From positions 62,001 to 126,000 of the forward strand of contig CAJXMH010000004.1 of NCBI GenBank assembly GCA_913056345.1: 64,000 nucleotides of DNA, read 5' to 3'. The notes below the pieces were generated by a model. That model worked only from the letters and a program-made list of their open reading frames with translations, made no database searches and was not told the origin of the DNA. The stretch comes from an uncultured Flavobacteriales bacterium (GTDB lineage Bacteria > Bacteroidota > Bacteroidia > Flavobacteriales_E > Vicingaceae). How positions within the stretch are numbered: position 1 is the stretch's first letter; each line of letters begins with the position of its first letter. Shown piece after piece: positions 4,450-9,191 of the stretch. A program made the position numbers and the translations under genes.

Positions 4450-6054
4450 ATGTCTTTATTCCGTAAACTTAATCTCTCTTTAATAATAGGCTTACTTTCA
4501 GTTAGCAGCAATTTTGCCCAAACTACTTCTCCAAAACTTGTCGTTGGTGTTGTGGTAGATCAAATGCGTTATGATTATTTGCAACGTTATTGGGATTCTT
4601 TTGGAGAAGAGGGTTTTAAGCGCTTAGTAAAGCAGGGCTTTGCCGTTAATAACGTAAACTACCATTACAAGCCTACTTACACTGGACCAGGACATGCTTC
4701 TATTTTTGCAGGAGCACCGCCTGCAAAACACGGTATTGTTGGTAATAATTGGTACTCTAGAGAAGAGGGGAAAGTAGTTTATTGCGCAGAGAGTAGAAAG
4801 GATGATGGAAGCTATTGGATGGCACCGAGCAGGATGAAAGGCAGAAATTTAGCAGACCAAATAAAACTTAGATACGGAGCCAAAGCCAAATGCTATGGCG
4901 TTTCATTAAAGGACCGGGGCGCTATTTTACCTGCAGGGCATATGGCAGATGCAGCTTTTTGGTTTGATGGTAAAGCAGGCCTTTGGATAAGCAGTGAATA
5001 CTATGAAAAGCAAAACCAAGCTTTTCTTGAAAGCTTCAATAAAATTGATCTGTTGGAACGCTATTTAAGAAAACCTTGGCAACTCTCAAAGGAGCAAGAT
5101 CACTATCAAACTTCCTTTGCAGACTCTAACGCTTACGAAAAACCATTGGTAAAAAAAGGAGGAATCACTTTTCCGTATAATTTACTCGAAGCATACAGGA
5201 AAGAAGGCTATAAGGTATTAAAGTCCATTCCACAGGGTAATACTATGACAACTGACTTTGCAATAAGTCTGTTAAAAGAAGAAGCGCTTGGCCAAGATGC
5301 AGTTCCTGATTTTTTATCCATTAGTTATTCTGCTACAGATTATGTTGGTCACACTTTTGGAGTTGGATCTCGCGAGGTTCAAGATACCTACATCAAACTT
5401 GATCAAGATATAGCCAATTTGCTAGTCAAATTAGACCAAGAGGTCGGAGAGGGCGAATACCTACTTTTTCTAACTTCAGACCATGGCGCAGGGGAGCCAA
5501 GAAACTTCTTAAAAGACGCTAAACTTCCTAATGGTCGTTTTTCTACAAGGGACATAAAAAATAATTTAGATTCTGCTCTAGATCAAAAGTTTGGACCAAG
5601 AGATTGGATAGATGCTTTTATTAACTTAAACGTATATTTTAATACCAAAGCATTAGAGGAGAAGTCCATAAAAGCTCAAGATGTGCTTGAATATGCAAAA
5701 CGATACTTGTCTAAACTTAAAGGAGTAAAAGCCGTTTGGAGTGCAAGCTCAAAAATTGCCCACTCACATTTCAACTCCATGGTAGAGAATGGCTATGAGC
5801 CCGAAGAGTCGGGAGATTTGATCTTGCTGGAACAGGCTTCTTGGACTAGTTACTCAGATAAAGGCTCAACCCATGGTAGTCCCTATCATTACGATACGCA
5901 TGTGCCACTTCTTTTTTATGGAAAAGGCATTAAGCCGGGTAAAACCAATCAAAGCTATAGCATTGCGGCAATAGCTTCAACTGTAGCACACCTCATTCAT
6001 CTTGCAGAACCTGAATTAAGCAAAGGTGAGATAATTATAGAATTAATGGATTAA
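4450..6054 (+). CDS. pafA: PafA-type alkaline phosphatase
   Basis: 534 residues with an N-terminal signal peptide (ends near NFAQ, residue 24). It belongs to the alkaline phosphatase superfamily: VVVDQMRYDY holds the first metal Asp (D37), YTGPGHAS carries the candidate nucleophile Thr78, GNNWYS the substrate Asn, SLKDRG the Lys and Arg of the phosphate pocket, and SATDYVGH, TSDHGAG and YDTHVP further zinc ligands. PafA enzymes are phosphate-insensitive periplasmic phosphomonoesterases abundant in marine Bacteroidota. The gene follows crcB after 3 bases and closes the obgE operon. The Thr nucleophile together with the K-x-R pair separates it from nucleotide pyrophosphatases. Confidence 0.88.
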   Translation: MSLFRKLNLSLIIGLLSVSSNFAQTTSPKLVVGVVVDQMRYDYLQRYWDSFGEEGFKRLVKQGFAVNNVNYHYKPTYTGPGHASIFAGAPPAKHGIVGNNWYSREEGKVVYCAESRKDDGSYWMAPSRMKGRNLADQIKLRYGAKAKCYGVSLKDRGAILPAGHMADAAFWFDGKAGLWISSEYYEKQNQAFLESFNKIDLLERYLRKPWQLSKEQDHYQTSFADSNAYEKPLVKKGGITFPYNLLEAYRKEGYKVLKSIPQGNTMTTDFAISLLKEEALGQDAVPDFLSISYSATDYVGHTFGVGSREVQDTYIKLDQDIANLLVKLDQEVGEGEYLLFLTSDHGAGEPRNFLKDAKLPNGRFSTRDIKNNLDSALDQKFGPRDWIDAFINLNVYFNTKALEEKSIKAQDVLEYAKRYLSKLKGVKAVWSASSKIAHSHFNSMVENGYEPEESGDLILLEQASWTSYSDKGSTHGSPYHYDTHVPLLFYGKGIKPGKTNQSYSIAAIASTVAHLIHLAEPELSKGEIIIELMD

Positions 6055-6084
6055 AAAAACCGACATAGCTTTAAGCTATGCCGG
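6053..6084 (-). terminator. rho-independent terminator of the 344-residue gene
   Basis: A 12-bp stem (CCGACATAGCTT pairing with AAGCTATGCCGG, one G-T wobble) at 6060-6084. On the minus strand it is followed by a run of seven T (6059-6053), giving a canonical terminator. It sits between the pafA stop and the stop of the convergent 344-residue gene. Confidence 0.75.
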
Positions 6085-6115
6085 CATCACAAATCACTCT
6101 TAACTAACCAATAAC

Positions 6116-7150
6116 TTAAGAGTAAGAAAGTCGGTCTCCACTTACACCGCGGTTTTCAAAATGTATGTCGATAAACGGTGTTTTAATAAGGTTAAAGTAG
6201 TTCTGTCTTTTTATGTATTTAGGCTTCTGTAATTCGTCTTTTATGGCGTAAAAGTGTGAACTATCAAGGTTAAAGCTATAAGCCTCGATGGATGAGGTGC
6301 TCATTGAATTTAGAGTTTGAAGGGCTAGCTTATTTTTTCCTTCTCTTATCAGGCCTTTTATTTTTAGGTAAGTCAGGATGTTGTTTAAATAGTGCTTTGT
6401 AAATCCAAATGGAAGCGAATTAACCTTAGTCTGACAATTATTTAAAAGATCGGCTAGCGACTCCTCCTTAGCATAGAGCAATTGAGTTTGCCCCGCTTCT
6501 AGGCTAAGGATTAATAGGCTAATTAGACAAAAACTTTCGTTCACGGGGCTAGCATTTTCACAGGCCAATTTTCTGATTTGTTTGAAGATTCTAATTTGCC
6601 TCTTTTTTAGTTCTTCATTCTTTGATTCATTTAAAGTGCCGTTTAGTTCTTCTAATAATTCAACCAATAGGCTGCTTGCGTGATTAATTTTTTGGTACTT
6701 CTTAAAAAGGTGCTCGTAAACTGTTTTTAAGGGACTATTCTTATTTAAACGAACCAACTCTTTTAGCAAAGGAGTTGAAACTTCCTCAATACCATAAAAT
6801 TTTAGTTGATTGAAAAGATCAGCTAATTTTTCTTCCCTCTTTTTGTAATCAGCTTCAGCATTTCCATGTAGCATATAAAACATGCTGGTTAGAATTAGTT
6901 CTTGATAATGAACATCTTTTAGTTCGAAATACTCTAGACAAGACCTGTAAATAATGCGTTCAAAAATCTTGAAAGTATTGTATTCCAGGTTTCCTTTTAA
7001 TTCATCGACTTTGTGGAGGTCTTCCTCTCGATAGGCTTTAAAAAGATCAAGACTTACATCAGCATAAGCGTAGTTTTCTTCCAAAACAGATTCTATACCT
7101 TGAATTTGTTTGTCCGTTAACTTGCTTATTATGTAAGATACTTCGAGCAT
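6116..7150 (-). CDS. helical-repeat protein, short paralogue of the 508-residue protein
   Basis: 344 residues, no signal peptide or membrane segment, rich in Leu, Glu and Lys and predicted by eye to be almost entirely alpha-helical. The opening ISKLTDKQIQG...LDLFKAYREED and the later NTFKIFERIIYRSCLEYF give the layout 'helix, short linker, lfxay, then kifeRI..sclE', which resembles a Bacteroidota-wide set of unnamed TPR-like proteins and the neighbouring gene at 7665. Function unknown. ATG at 7150 is the first start codon in frame. A strong hairpin with a T-run lies just downstream. Cytoplasmic, perhaps a protein- or peptide-binding scaffold (inference). Confidence 0.7.
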   Translation of the reverse strand: MLEVSYIISKLTDKQIQGIESVLEENYAYADVSLDLFKAYREEDLHKVDELKGNLEYNTFKIFERIIYRSCLEYFELKDVHYQELILTSMFYMLHGNAEADYKKREEKLADLFNQLKFYGIEEVSTPLLKELVRLNKNSPLKTVYEHLFKKYQKINHASSLLVELLEELNGTLNESKNEELKKRQIRIFKQIRKLACENASPVNESFCLISLLILSLEAGQTQLLYAKEESLADLLNNCQTKVNSLPFGFTKHYLNNILTYLKIKGLIREGKNKLALQTLNSMSTSSIEAYSFNLDSSHFYAIKDELQKPKYIKRQNYFNLIKTPFIDIHFENRGVSGDRLSYS

Positions 7151-7226
7151 TTATCTATAATTGAGAACTAAGTTAAAGAGCTAGTTTGTCAAAACAAGTC
7201 CCAATTATCTCAAAAATAAACAGCAG

Positions 7227-7266
7227 AAAGCTGTTAAAATTTATATCAGTAAACTTTAACAGCTTT
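7227..7266. repeat. 12-bp perfect inverted repeat with 16-base loop
   Basis: AAAGCTGTTAAA (7227-7238) is the exact reverse complement of TTTAACAGCTTT (7255-7266). It lies in the non-coding stretch between the 344-residue gene and the small peptide gene, and downstream of the latter on the minus strand. A second, weaker hairpin (TTTAAGT/ACTTAAA) sits next to it at about 7278-7298. Together they may end or attenuate minus-strand transcripts, but no clear T-run follows the large stem. Confidence 0.5.
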
Positions 7267-7316
7267 ATATTAAATGATTTAAGTGTTTTTTACTTAAACA
7301 ACAGAATTAATAGTTT

Positions 7317-7493
7317 TTACGGCTCAGGTGTATATCCTGGCTCGTTCCATTCTTCCCATCCACCTCCATCTTCCGTTTCAGTTTCTTGCGCCTCTGCTAT
7401 TTCTTGATTTAATTGTTCTTCTGTGTATCCATCATAGTCAGAAGGAGTTCCATATCCGAGTAATGAAATTAGTAATGTAATCAATGCTGCCAT
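7317..7493 (-). CDS. 58-residue peptide: hydrophobic N-terminus, acidic Trp-rich tail
   Basis: Read directly from the sequence: 58 codons plus stop. The protein opens MAALITLLISLLGYG, a hydrophobic stretch able to act as signal or membrane anchor, then becomes very acidic (TEEQLNQEIAEAQETETED) and ends GGGWEEWNEPGYTPEP. No Cys and no Lys or Arg at all, which is striking for so short a protein. A consensus promoter (TTG-N19-TAGTTTTG) lies 27 bases upstream, and the A/T-rich ...AAATAAAATT leader is typical of Bacteroidota. It lies between two related helical-repeat protein genes. Function unknown; candidate secreted or membrane peptide (inference). The opposite-strand frame here is judged a shadow. 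Confidence 0.68.
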   Translation of the reverse strand: MAALITLLISLLGYGTPSDYDGYTEEQLNQEIAEAQETETEDGGGWEEWNEPGYTPEP

Positions 7494-7519
7494 AATTTTA
7501 TTTTTTTAAAGGTTCATAT

Positions 7520-7549
7520 CAAAACTAAAGGCATAATTTTGACTTGCAA
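7520..7549 (-). promoter_or_regulatory. Bacteroidota promoter TTG-N19-TAGTTTTG for the 58-residue peptide
   Basis: On the minus strand TAGTTTTG (7527-7520) fits TAnnTTTG exactly and a TTG (7549-7547) lies 19 bases upstream, the preferred spacing. Transcription would start near 7513, about 20 bases before the ATG at 7493. Confidence 0.7.
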
Positions 7550-7664
7550 GGGACAAATCATCGCTATTCTAACAGTGAAACCGTGTTAAATTATTGCGTA
7601 AACTCCCTTCAATCTACTATATAATAATGCTTTGGTCTTACATTTATAACTTCATCACCTAAGC

Positions 7665-9191
7665 ATGGCCGAAAAGCATTTTTTTCACTTAAAGGATCTG
7701 GTAAGTCGCTTAAGTTCCAAAGAACAAAAGGTAGCGATGAGGCATTTAACGGATTATCGTAACGATGTTCTGGCTCGGCAAACCAAAATGTTCTTATTAT
7801 ATCAAAGTATTTTAAAGGAACCTGATATAAAGTATGATAAAGCTAAGAAGCTTATTTCCTCTAAACACTCAACTGGTGTTTTCTCTCAATTGTGCAGAAG
7901 AACTTATAACCGGTTGAAGGAGTCTTTGATCCTCGAAGTAAATATCCACCGAGAGGAAAGATACAGCAAGGTATTCCAGAAAAAGTTTAGCCTGCGCAAA
8001 GAAATAGTACAAAATCAAATTTTAAGTGGCCGGGGATTAATAGAAGAGGCTTGGCATGAAAATGAAAAGCTGATAAAACAAGCCAAGCGTTATGAGTTGT
8101 ATGATGAGTTATTGGAACTGCTTTATACCCAGCAAGATAAATCCGTTAGTTATAAAGGCTTTAAAGAATATGAGCGTCTTGAGCAAGAAATCAAGCAGTT
8201 CGAAAATATCAGAAGTCTATTTCAAAAGGCTAGAGGAGCTTTGAATTCCTATTACTTGAGGGTAAATTACTCCAACAGCAGGGAAGGGAATTTTAAATTA
8301 ATGAAGAAAACTTTCAGCAACCTTCAGCAATATGCCGAGGAGTCTGGCTCTAAACATATCAAAAGCCTGTCTTATTTGATTGGGATGGAGTATTATTTTC
8401 AAAAAAAGAATTACAAAAAGAACATTAGTATAGGTGAGCAATTTCTAGAACTAATAAGAAGTTCACCAAGTGTAAATTCGAAGCAGCGAGAAGTTTACAT
8501 ATTTAATAATTTGATCAGGAATGCAGCTTACAGTGGTCAGTTCAGCCTTGCAGATTCTTACCTTGAAAAGGCTTTAGGGGTTCAGCTTAACTCTGGAAGT
8601 AAGAACCTTTACAAATTACTAGAGCTTAAATTGTTCGTAAATTTCTACAAGGAAAACCATGGTTTATCTCAAGAGCTGATTGAAACGCTAGAAAAGTCTC
8701 CTGTGGCTAAAGGTGAGTTGTATCAAACAAAGTTGAATTACTACAAATCCATGTTGTATTTTGTAAGAGGAGAGTTTAAGAATGCTAGCCTTTTACTCAG
8801 AAACCTCCCATTACTTGAACTTGACAAGGAAGGCTGGAATATCCACATTAGGATTATGCGTGTTCTTTGTTCTATAGAAATGGGTAGAGAGGATTTAATT
8901 GACTACGATTTTTCTAATTTAAGAAAAACGGTATGGCGAACTAATCCAAAACAGTCTTTAAGTAATCGTCTTAAAACTTTAATTGACTTACTAATCTCCC
9001 TTGATTCATGCGACTATAATTACATTACTTTTTTCGACAAGAATGATAAAGTGATCGAGGAATTAAGTGCACCAATTGGCAGCGATTTAGGTTGGAGTCC
9101 GTTTGGGGCAGAAATGGTGCTTCTGCATGATTGGTTTTATGCAAGATCACAAGGTCAAGCCTATCGTCCGAATTTGAATCGATTCCAGTAA
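7665..9191 (+). CDS. 508-residue helical-repeat (TPR-like) protein
   Basis: 508 residues, no signal peptide, no membrane segment. It opens HLKDLVSRLSSKEQKVAMRHL, then FLLYQSILKEPD, and SQLCRRTYNRLKESLI: the 'LI.sL.k.Ekr' start, 'lf..i' and 'l...L..SL' layout of a large unnamed Bacteroidota family of TPR-like solenoids. The rest is a succession of paired helices (e.g. GRGLIEEAWHENEKLI, IRNAAYSGQFSLADSYLEKAL, YFVRGEFKNASLLL). The 344-residue gene across the intergenic region shares the general layout but is shorter. Function unknown; a scaffold, or sensor of a peptide or protein partner, is possible (inference). A hairpin terminator follows the stop. Confidence 0.78.
   Translation: MAEKHFFHLKDLVSRLSSKEQKVAMRHLTDYRNDVLARQTKMFLLYQSILKEPDIKYDKAKKLISSKHSTGVFSQLCRRTYNRLKESLILEVNIHREERYSKVFQKKFSLRKEIVQNQILSGRGLIEEAWHENEKLIKQAKRYELYDELLELLYTQQDKSVSYKGFKEYERLEQEIKQFENIRSLFQKARGALNSYYLRVNYSNSREGNFKLMKKTFSNLQQYAEESGSKHIKSLSYLIGMEYYFQKKNYKKNISIGEQFLELIRSSPSVNSKQREVYIFNNLIRNAAYSGQFSLADSYLEKALGVQLNSGSKNLYKLLELKLFVNFYKENHGLSQELIETLEKSPVAKGELYQTKLNYYKSMLYFVRGEFKNASLLLRNLPLLELDKEGWNIHIRIMRVLCSIEMGREDLIDYDFSNLRKTVWRTNPKQSLSNRLKTLIDLLISLDSCDYNYITFFDKNDKVIEELSAPIGSDLGWSPFGAEMVLLHDWFYARSQGQAYRPNLNRFQ

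Follow-up and report, generated by a model that had tools for sequence, protein, structure and literature searches.

A short acidic peptide gene inherited with two helical-protein genes in Flavobacteriales: a candidate peptide-sensing unit

The genes for a 58-residue acidic peptide, a 344-residue all-helical protein and a 508-residue protein constitute one fixed, co-inherited unit in the bacterial family studied here. Possibly the trio senses peptides in a way undescribed in Bacteroidota, in which case the peptide would bind to the 508-residue protein. The window, the whole stretch of 64,000 nucleotides that was analyzed (G000:C4:62001-126000), comes from a host genome of 2.9 Mb with 99.7% completeness, and among its family relatives are Acidiluteibacter ferrifornacis as well as several Flavobacteriales and Vicingaceae MAGs. 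The peptide gene (7317-7493, - strand) is located upstream of the gene for the 344-residue protein (6116-7150, - strand), with which it shares the strand, and diverges from the gene for the 508-residue protein (7665-9191, + strand). These three open reading frames have the coordinates and strands given in the original prediction.

Conservation and inheritance of the three genes

When 46 genomes of the family were searched, the peptide was found in nine, including its own genome, with E-values down to 2e-23. The ten aligned copies share the pattern M[T/A/I]xLI[T]LLISLLGYG[T/S]P[A/S][D/N][Y/F], with nine invariant columns. Codons 1-19 of the window copy (7437-7493, - strand) correspond to this nearly invariant N-terminal block, whose consensus is MTxLITLLISLLGYGTPAD. 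In the DNA of the block, nearly every synonymous site is altered between relatives; in the codon comparison of G038 with G029, 14 of 51 bases differ and 0 of 17 residues. A protein block kept unchanged despite near-saturated synonymous sites indicates purifying selection on the peptide protein, and the 58-residue open reading frame is, judged from this codon pattern, a real protein-coding gene.

Behind the block, the tail is variable and acidic, and in the ten copies it usually includes a Gly-rich DGG and a Trp. The composition of the window copy, with 14 Asp/Glu, bears out the hydrophobic N-terminus and the acidic Trp/Gly/Pro-rich tail described earlier. The complete lack of Lys and Arg holds for this copy but not across the relatives, which have 0-3 such residues; Asp/Glu number 4-14 per copy (in G001 the contig ends within the gene). 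Conservation in the peptide is highest in the hydrophobic N-terminus and not in the tail, which counts against an explanation in which the tail is a ligand. A conserved N-terminal block with a variable C-terminal tail is also what the leader and variable core of a precursor of a modified peptide natural product would present. This reading is highly improbable: a modification enzyme, a peptidase and a transporter are absent from all nine neighborhoods, and neither the 344- nor the 508-residue protein matches an enzyme family.

Full-length, in-place homologues of the 508-residue protein were found in nine genomes (beyond the own genome, E-values range from 8e-63 to 1e-108), and none of the nine lacks the peptide or the 344-residue protein gene. 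In the family genomes that have no peptide, the unit is missing or only fragments are seen. The trio occupies one synteny point after obgE-PAP2-crcB-alkaline phosphatase, with crcB adjoining; the phosphatase is present there in eight of the nine genomes (G001 being the one without it), and the contigs of G035 and G029 start inside the block. In a class-wide sample of 395 genomes, the matches were confined to the window's family. The 508-residue profile, compared with 395 genomes of the phylum, matched nothing beyond its own genome, in a first look that is weak for distant relatives. The trees of the 344- and 508-residue proteins agree in a g10 clade and in the grouping of G038 with G029, with weak support at deeper nodes, and this agreement fits mainly vertical descent with losses. 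According to the original prediction, the peptide idea would fail if the small gene were consistently missing beside homologues of the repeat proteins. It is not missing beside the close homologues of the 508-residue protein, but it is missing beside distant 508-like proteins (G005, G006 and L062) and tandem copies.

Several genomes show altered forms of the locus. In G032, the 508-residue protein gene survives as fragments only. In G034 (L041:5527-7465), a pair of IS3-like transposase open reading frames replaces the 344-residue protein gene, the peptide gene and the front of the 508-residue protein gene, and no peptide was found. In G003 (L116:6556-7090), the back of the 344-residue protein gene is joined to the back of the 508-residue protein gene, the peptide gene and both fronts being deleted, and the flanks match G001. 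Three 508-type genes stand in a row in G035 (L035:3-5067); two have diverged far and lack a peptide gene of their own. In genus g4, a distant 508 homologue is divergent from a different small protein of ~100 residues that has four Cys and an N-terminus resembling a signal sequence (L042:5837-7318 and 7426-7806 and L044:4260-4595 and 4748-6230, from G006 and G005), and the G005 homologue is split by stops.

The peptide gene itself is duplicated in tandem in G030. Two contigs of G001 end in a peptide gene, and where the two versions overlap, two synonymous bases distinguish them; thus, the isolate genome has at least two copies, unless these are two alleles or an assembly error. Such copies, often seen in pheromone genes and propeptides, were counted in favor of the peptide being a ligand. 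Anti-phage defence and phage origin were considered and rejected, as the locus gave no match to PADLOC, PHROG, phage or plasmid records, or viral contigs.

Promoter elements and the hairpin

The TTG-N19-TAGTTTTG promoter originally described for the peptide gene is exact in the window (7549-7520, - strand), but among the relatives only G038 retains a TTG at N19. The comparison across relatives revealed a recurring element, TGTCC-N23-TAnnTTT[G/A], with a spacer of 22-24. In the window, the peptide promoter takes the form TGTCC-N23-TAGTTTTG (7520-7555, - strand) and includes TTG-N19-TAGTTTTG at 7520-7549. The element is found upstream of the peptide gene in seven of nine cases and upstream of the 344-residue protein gene in eight of nine, always 59-77 bases from the start codon, while dinucleotide shuffles gave a mean of 0.00 and at most one. 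At that spacing, no other 5-mer is as common as TGTCC, which occurs in 15 of 18 upstream regions. The G001 peptide promoter has TGTCC and a -7 box that is one base off, and the g10 genomes have a second TGTCC 20 bases upstream. The TGTCC element is absent from the window's own promoter of the 344-residue protein gene and from the G029 peptide promoter.

Only two matches to the pattern occur in the whole own genome, and elsewhere in 18 genomes it is no commoner than a reversed-pattern control. A genome-wide TGTCC regulon under a global sigma factor or activator was rejected on this ground. Since the element is not enriched beyond the locus, it is locus-specific, and a regulator specific to the locus is likely. 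In Flavobacterium psychrophilum, TAnnTTTG is positioned at -12 to -5 (PMC9723704); on this placement, TGTCC is calculated to lie at about -40 to -36, a usual position for an activator. Past the -7 box of promoters of the 344-residue protein gene (L055, L056, L058 and L063), TTTACATCGTAATtC is common across genera, and it is possibly a second operator or a start-site element.

The peptide gene is followed by a strong hairpin (7225-7268, - strand), a probable terminator before the 344-residue protein gene, with a folding energy of -17.5 kcal/mol against a mean of -9.9 (sd 2.8, minimum -15.9) in shuffles. Strong hairpins of unrelated sequence, clearly beyond shuffles, are found at the corresponding place in G040, G035, G033 and G030, but not in G038 or G004. 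As a hairpin follows the peptide gene in most loci, the peptide message probably ends ahead of the 344-residue protein gene. The small open reading frame lies directly upstream of this gene and shares its strand, and in five of eight loci a strong hairpin separates the two; it could instead encode a leader peptide that controls the gene by attenuation. This is very improbable, as amino acids are conserved at the N-terminus, the tail is acidic, and no run of one regulatory codon is present. In addition, in most relatives the 344-residue protein gene has its own conserved promoter 3' of the hairpin, and the peptide tracks the 508-residue protein as strictly as it tracks the 344-residue one.

The two helical proteins and the nature of the peptide

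The AlphaFold2 model of the 508-residue protein, built from an alignment of 14 sequences (pLDDT 87.7), consists of an N-terminal helical domain (residues 1-86, with helices from residue 2), a weak loop near residues 87-101, and a TPR-like superhelix. Its top structural matches span residues 184-508 and include Rap-pLS20/Phr* (Z 19.8, 277 residues, 3.8 A), LGN (Z 19.7), RapI (19.5), NprR (19.0) and KLC (about 17), all of which exceed the best Z near 14 that the search tool's note gives as usual for helical models. Because LGN and other TPR proteins tie with Rap, the fold alone says TPR and names no function. The protein is predicted to form a TPR superhelix able to hold a peptide, a property that is necessary, not sufficient, for RRNPPA membership (Rap, Rgg, NprR, PlcR, PrgX and AimR with their pheromones, from Bacillota). 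No sequence similarity to any RRNPPA member was detected; the profile search against PDB sequences returned one weak TPR protein (E 1.5), and no Pfam family scored above the cut-off. The helical residues 1-86 matched neither HTH families nor solved sequences, and DNA binding by this protein is therefore a guess.

The central part of the 508-residue protein (about residues 201-350; 8265-8714, + strand) is hypervariable. Among the congeneric G033, G035 and G030, identity is 68-84% at residues 1-100, 12-46% at about 200-350, and 66-98% after 400, and no such continuous trough is seen in the 344-residue protein, CrcB or the phosphatase of the same genomes. The dN is about 0.7-0.8 in the center versus 0.1-0.2 at the ends, with dS near saturation in both; since dN/dS of the center is below 1 and dS is near saturation, relaxed constraint is possible. 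This profile would look like a variable recognition region joined to a constant output region, and the variable center together with the variable peptide tail was counted in favor of a ligand-receptor relationship. In G004, the proteins encoded by the tandem copies are 11-45% identical along most of the sequence, rising to 96-100% at the C-terminus. The DNA of these paralogues (L038:7379-10855) is 98-99% identical over the last ~450 bases and 42-63% in the remainder, pointing to gene conversion that affected the C-terminal part.

A hypervariable center, the extra 508-type copies of G004 and G035 that lack a peptide of their own, and the decayed loci of G003, G032 and G034 would also suit a bacteriocin-like or toxic peptide, for which the 508-residue protein and its tandem copies would be immunity proteins of differing specificity. 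This explanation is improbable, given a peptide that is acidic, poor in Lys and Arg, and without Cys or a double-Gly leader, and whose N-terminus is conserved rather than diversifying. Neither a nearby exporter nor a PADLOC or PHROG match supports it.

The 344-residue protein co-occurs with the peptide and belongs to no known family. Its residues 153-312 are TPR-like in the fold search with its model, which gave nothing firm (the best hit had Z 11, with 222 residues aligned at 11 A). The original prediction placed it in one family with the 508-residue protein. A common family was rejected on the full-length profile-profile comparison (probability 0.4%) and is not supported by the N-termini (2%); the N-termini match best in register, but about 1% of column shuffles equal that score. 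The open reading frames, the peptide composition and the exact TTG-N19-TAGTTTTG of that prediction stand, but the single family is not supported.

Export of the peptide, also proposed earlier, may occur but is not the favored reading. Residues 3-12 are hydrophobic, and positions 16 and 18 invariably hold small residues (T/S and A/S), resembling a signal peptidase I site. Near-invariance of such an N-terminal block is unusual for a mere signal peptide. None of the ten copies has a basic residue ahead of the hydrophobic stretch, and each of them carries Asp or Asn at position 19, next to the possible TPA/D cleavage site. About 71% of signal peptidase I substrates in Bacteroidota expose Gln after cleavage (PMC10653852), and the alkaline phosphatase in the window shows ...NFA/QTT. 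From these sequence features, the absence of a positive n-region and Asp/Asn in place of Gln, classical Sec export is not favored. No exporter, protease or importer gene is linked to the locus.

The same features fit a peptide that is a small structural or adaptor protein, with its N-terminus in a membrane or a hydrophobic groove and its tail docked on the 508- and/or 344-residue protein, with no signaling. The 17 nearly invariant N-terminal residues fit a fixed contact, neither a positive n-region nor a Gln after the possible cleavage site is present, and the locus shows no export genes. On the other hand, the peptide gene comes with a separate promoter and is followed by a probable terminator ahead of the 344-residue protein gene, a regulated element is common to these two genes, the peptide occurs in tandem copies, and the center of the 508-residue protein diverges faster than its ends. 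The structural role is considered rather unlikely.

The preferred reading, put forward tentatively at somewhat below an even chance, is a module in which the 508-residue protein acts as a TPR receptor in the cytoplasm, with the acidic peptide as its dedicated ligand, controlling the promoters of the peptide and 344-residue protein genes. The variable tail of the peptide would be held in the variable TPR groove, and the ligand state of the receptor would set transcription, either directly through the N-terminal helical domain or through a partner. The targets would be the TGTCC-N23-TAnnTTT[G/A] promoters of the two genes, and the 344-residue protein, being under the control of the ligand state, would be the output. 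The originally proposed peptide-receptor pair or bound small protein gains from the co-occurrence, the TPR fold, the variable receptor center and peptide tail, and the promoter element, but its export and single-family parts are not supported.

Comparison with known peptide-receptor systems

Peptide signaling through cytoplasmic TPR receptors is described for Bacillota and treated as a Firmicutes trait in the papers found, among them PMC9765709 and PMC7564271. If the reading is true, this compact module lets one ask whether Bacteroidota independently evolved TPR peptide signaling, and Acidiluteibacter ferrifornacis S-15 is a cultured host that carries it. Even as a structural partner, a protein of 50-65 residues strictly tied to the 344- and 508-residue proteins is a handle on both families.

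Generic peptide-binding TPR proteins such as LGN and kinesin light chain (KLC) reach structural scores equal to those of Rap, and they bind short acidic or Trp-containing motifs, as KLC2 does with the Trp-acidic peptide of calsyntenin. They differ in being eukaryotic and without a linked peptide gene. The Streptococcus SHP/Rgg systems (PMC7564271) resemble the trio in a very short hydrophobic peptide encoded divergently from or beside the receptor gene. However, SHPs have basic N-termini and a C-terminal hydrophobic pheromone, whereas the trio peptide is hydrophobic at its N-terminus and acidic in its tail.

The RRNPPA systems share with the trio a small peptide gene adjoining a TPR protein, and the adjacent small propeptide gene that characterizes them has its counterpart in all nine genomes with an in-place full-length 508-residue protein. 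Further likenesses are the best structural matches to Rap and NprR, the tandem peptide copies, and the divergence centered on the TPR part. In RRNPPA systems, the propeptide leaves the cell through Sec or a dedicated exporter, and the peptide alters the activity of the receptor that it binds. RRNPPA receptors have an N-terminal HTH or three-helix bundle (PMC9765709). The trio differs in its phylum, divergent gene order and extra co-regulated gene, in a receptor candidate without an HTH match or sequence similarity, and in a peptide without a convincing Sec signal. Because no sequence similarity was detected and the HTH and export features give no clear match, the trio is left out of RRNPPA despite its pair-like anatomy. 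It is possible, though doubtful, that it represents a native peptide-TPR signaling system of Bacteroidota, separate from RRNPPA in sequence and equipped with a promoter code of its own, an output protein as third component, and a peptide tail that co-diversifies with the receptor groove.
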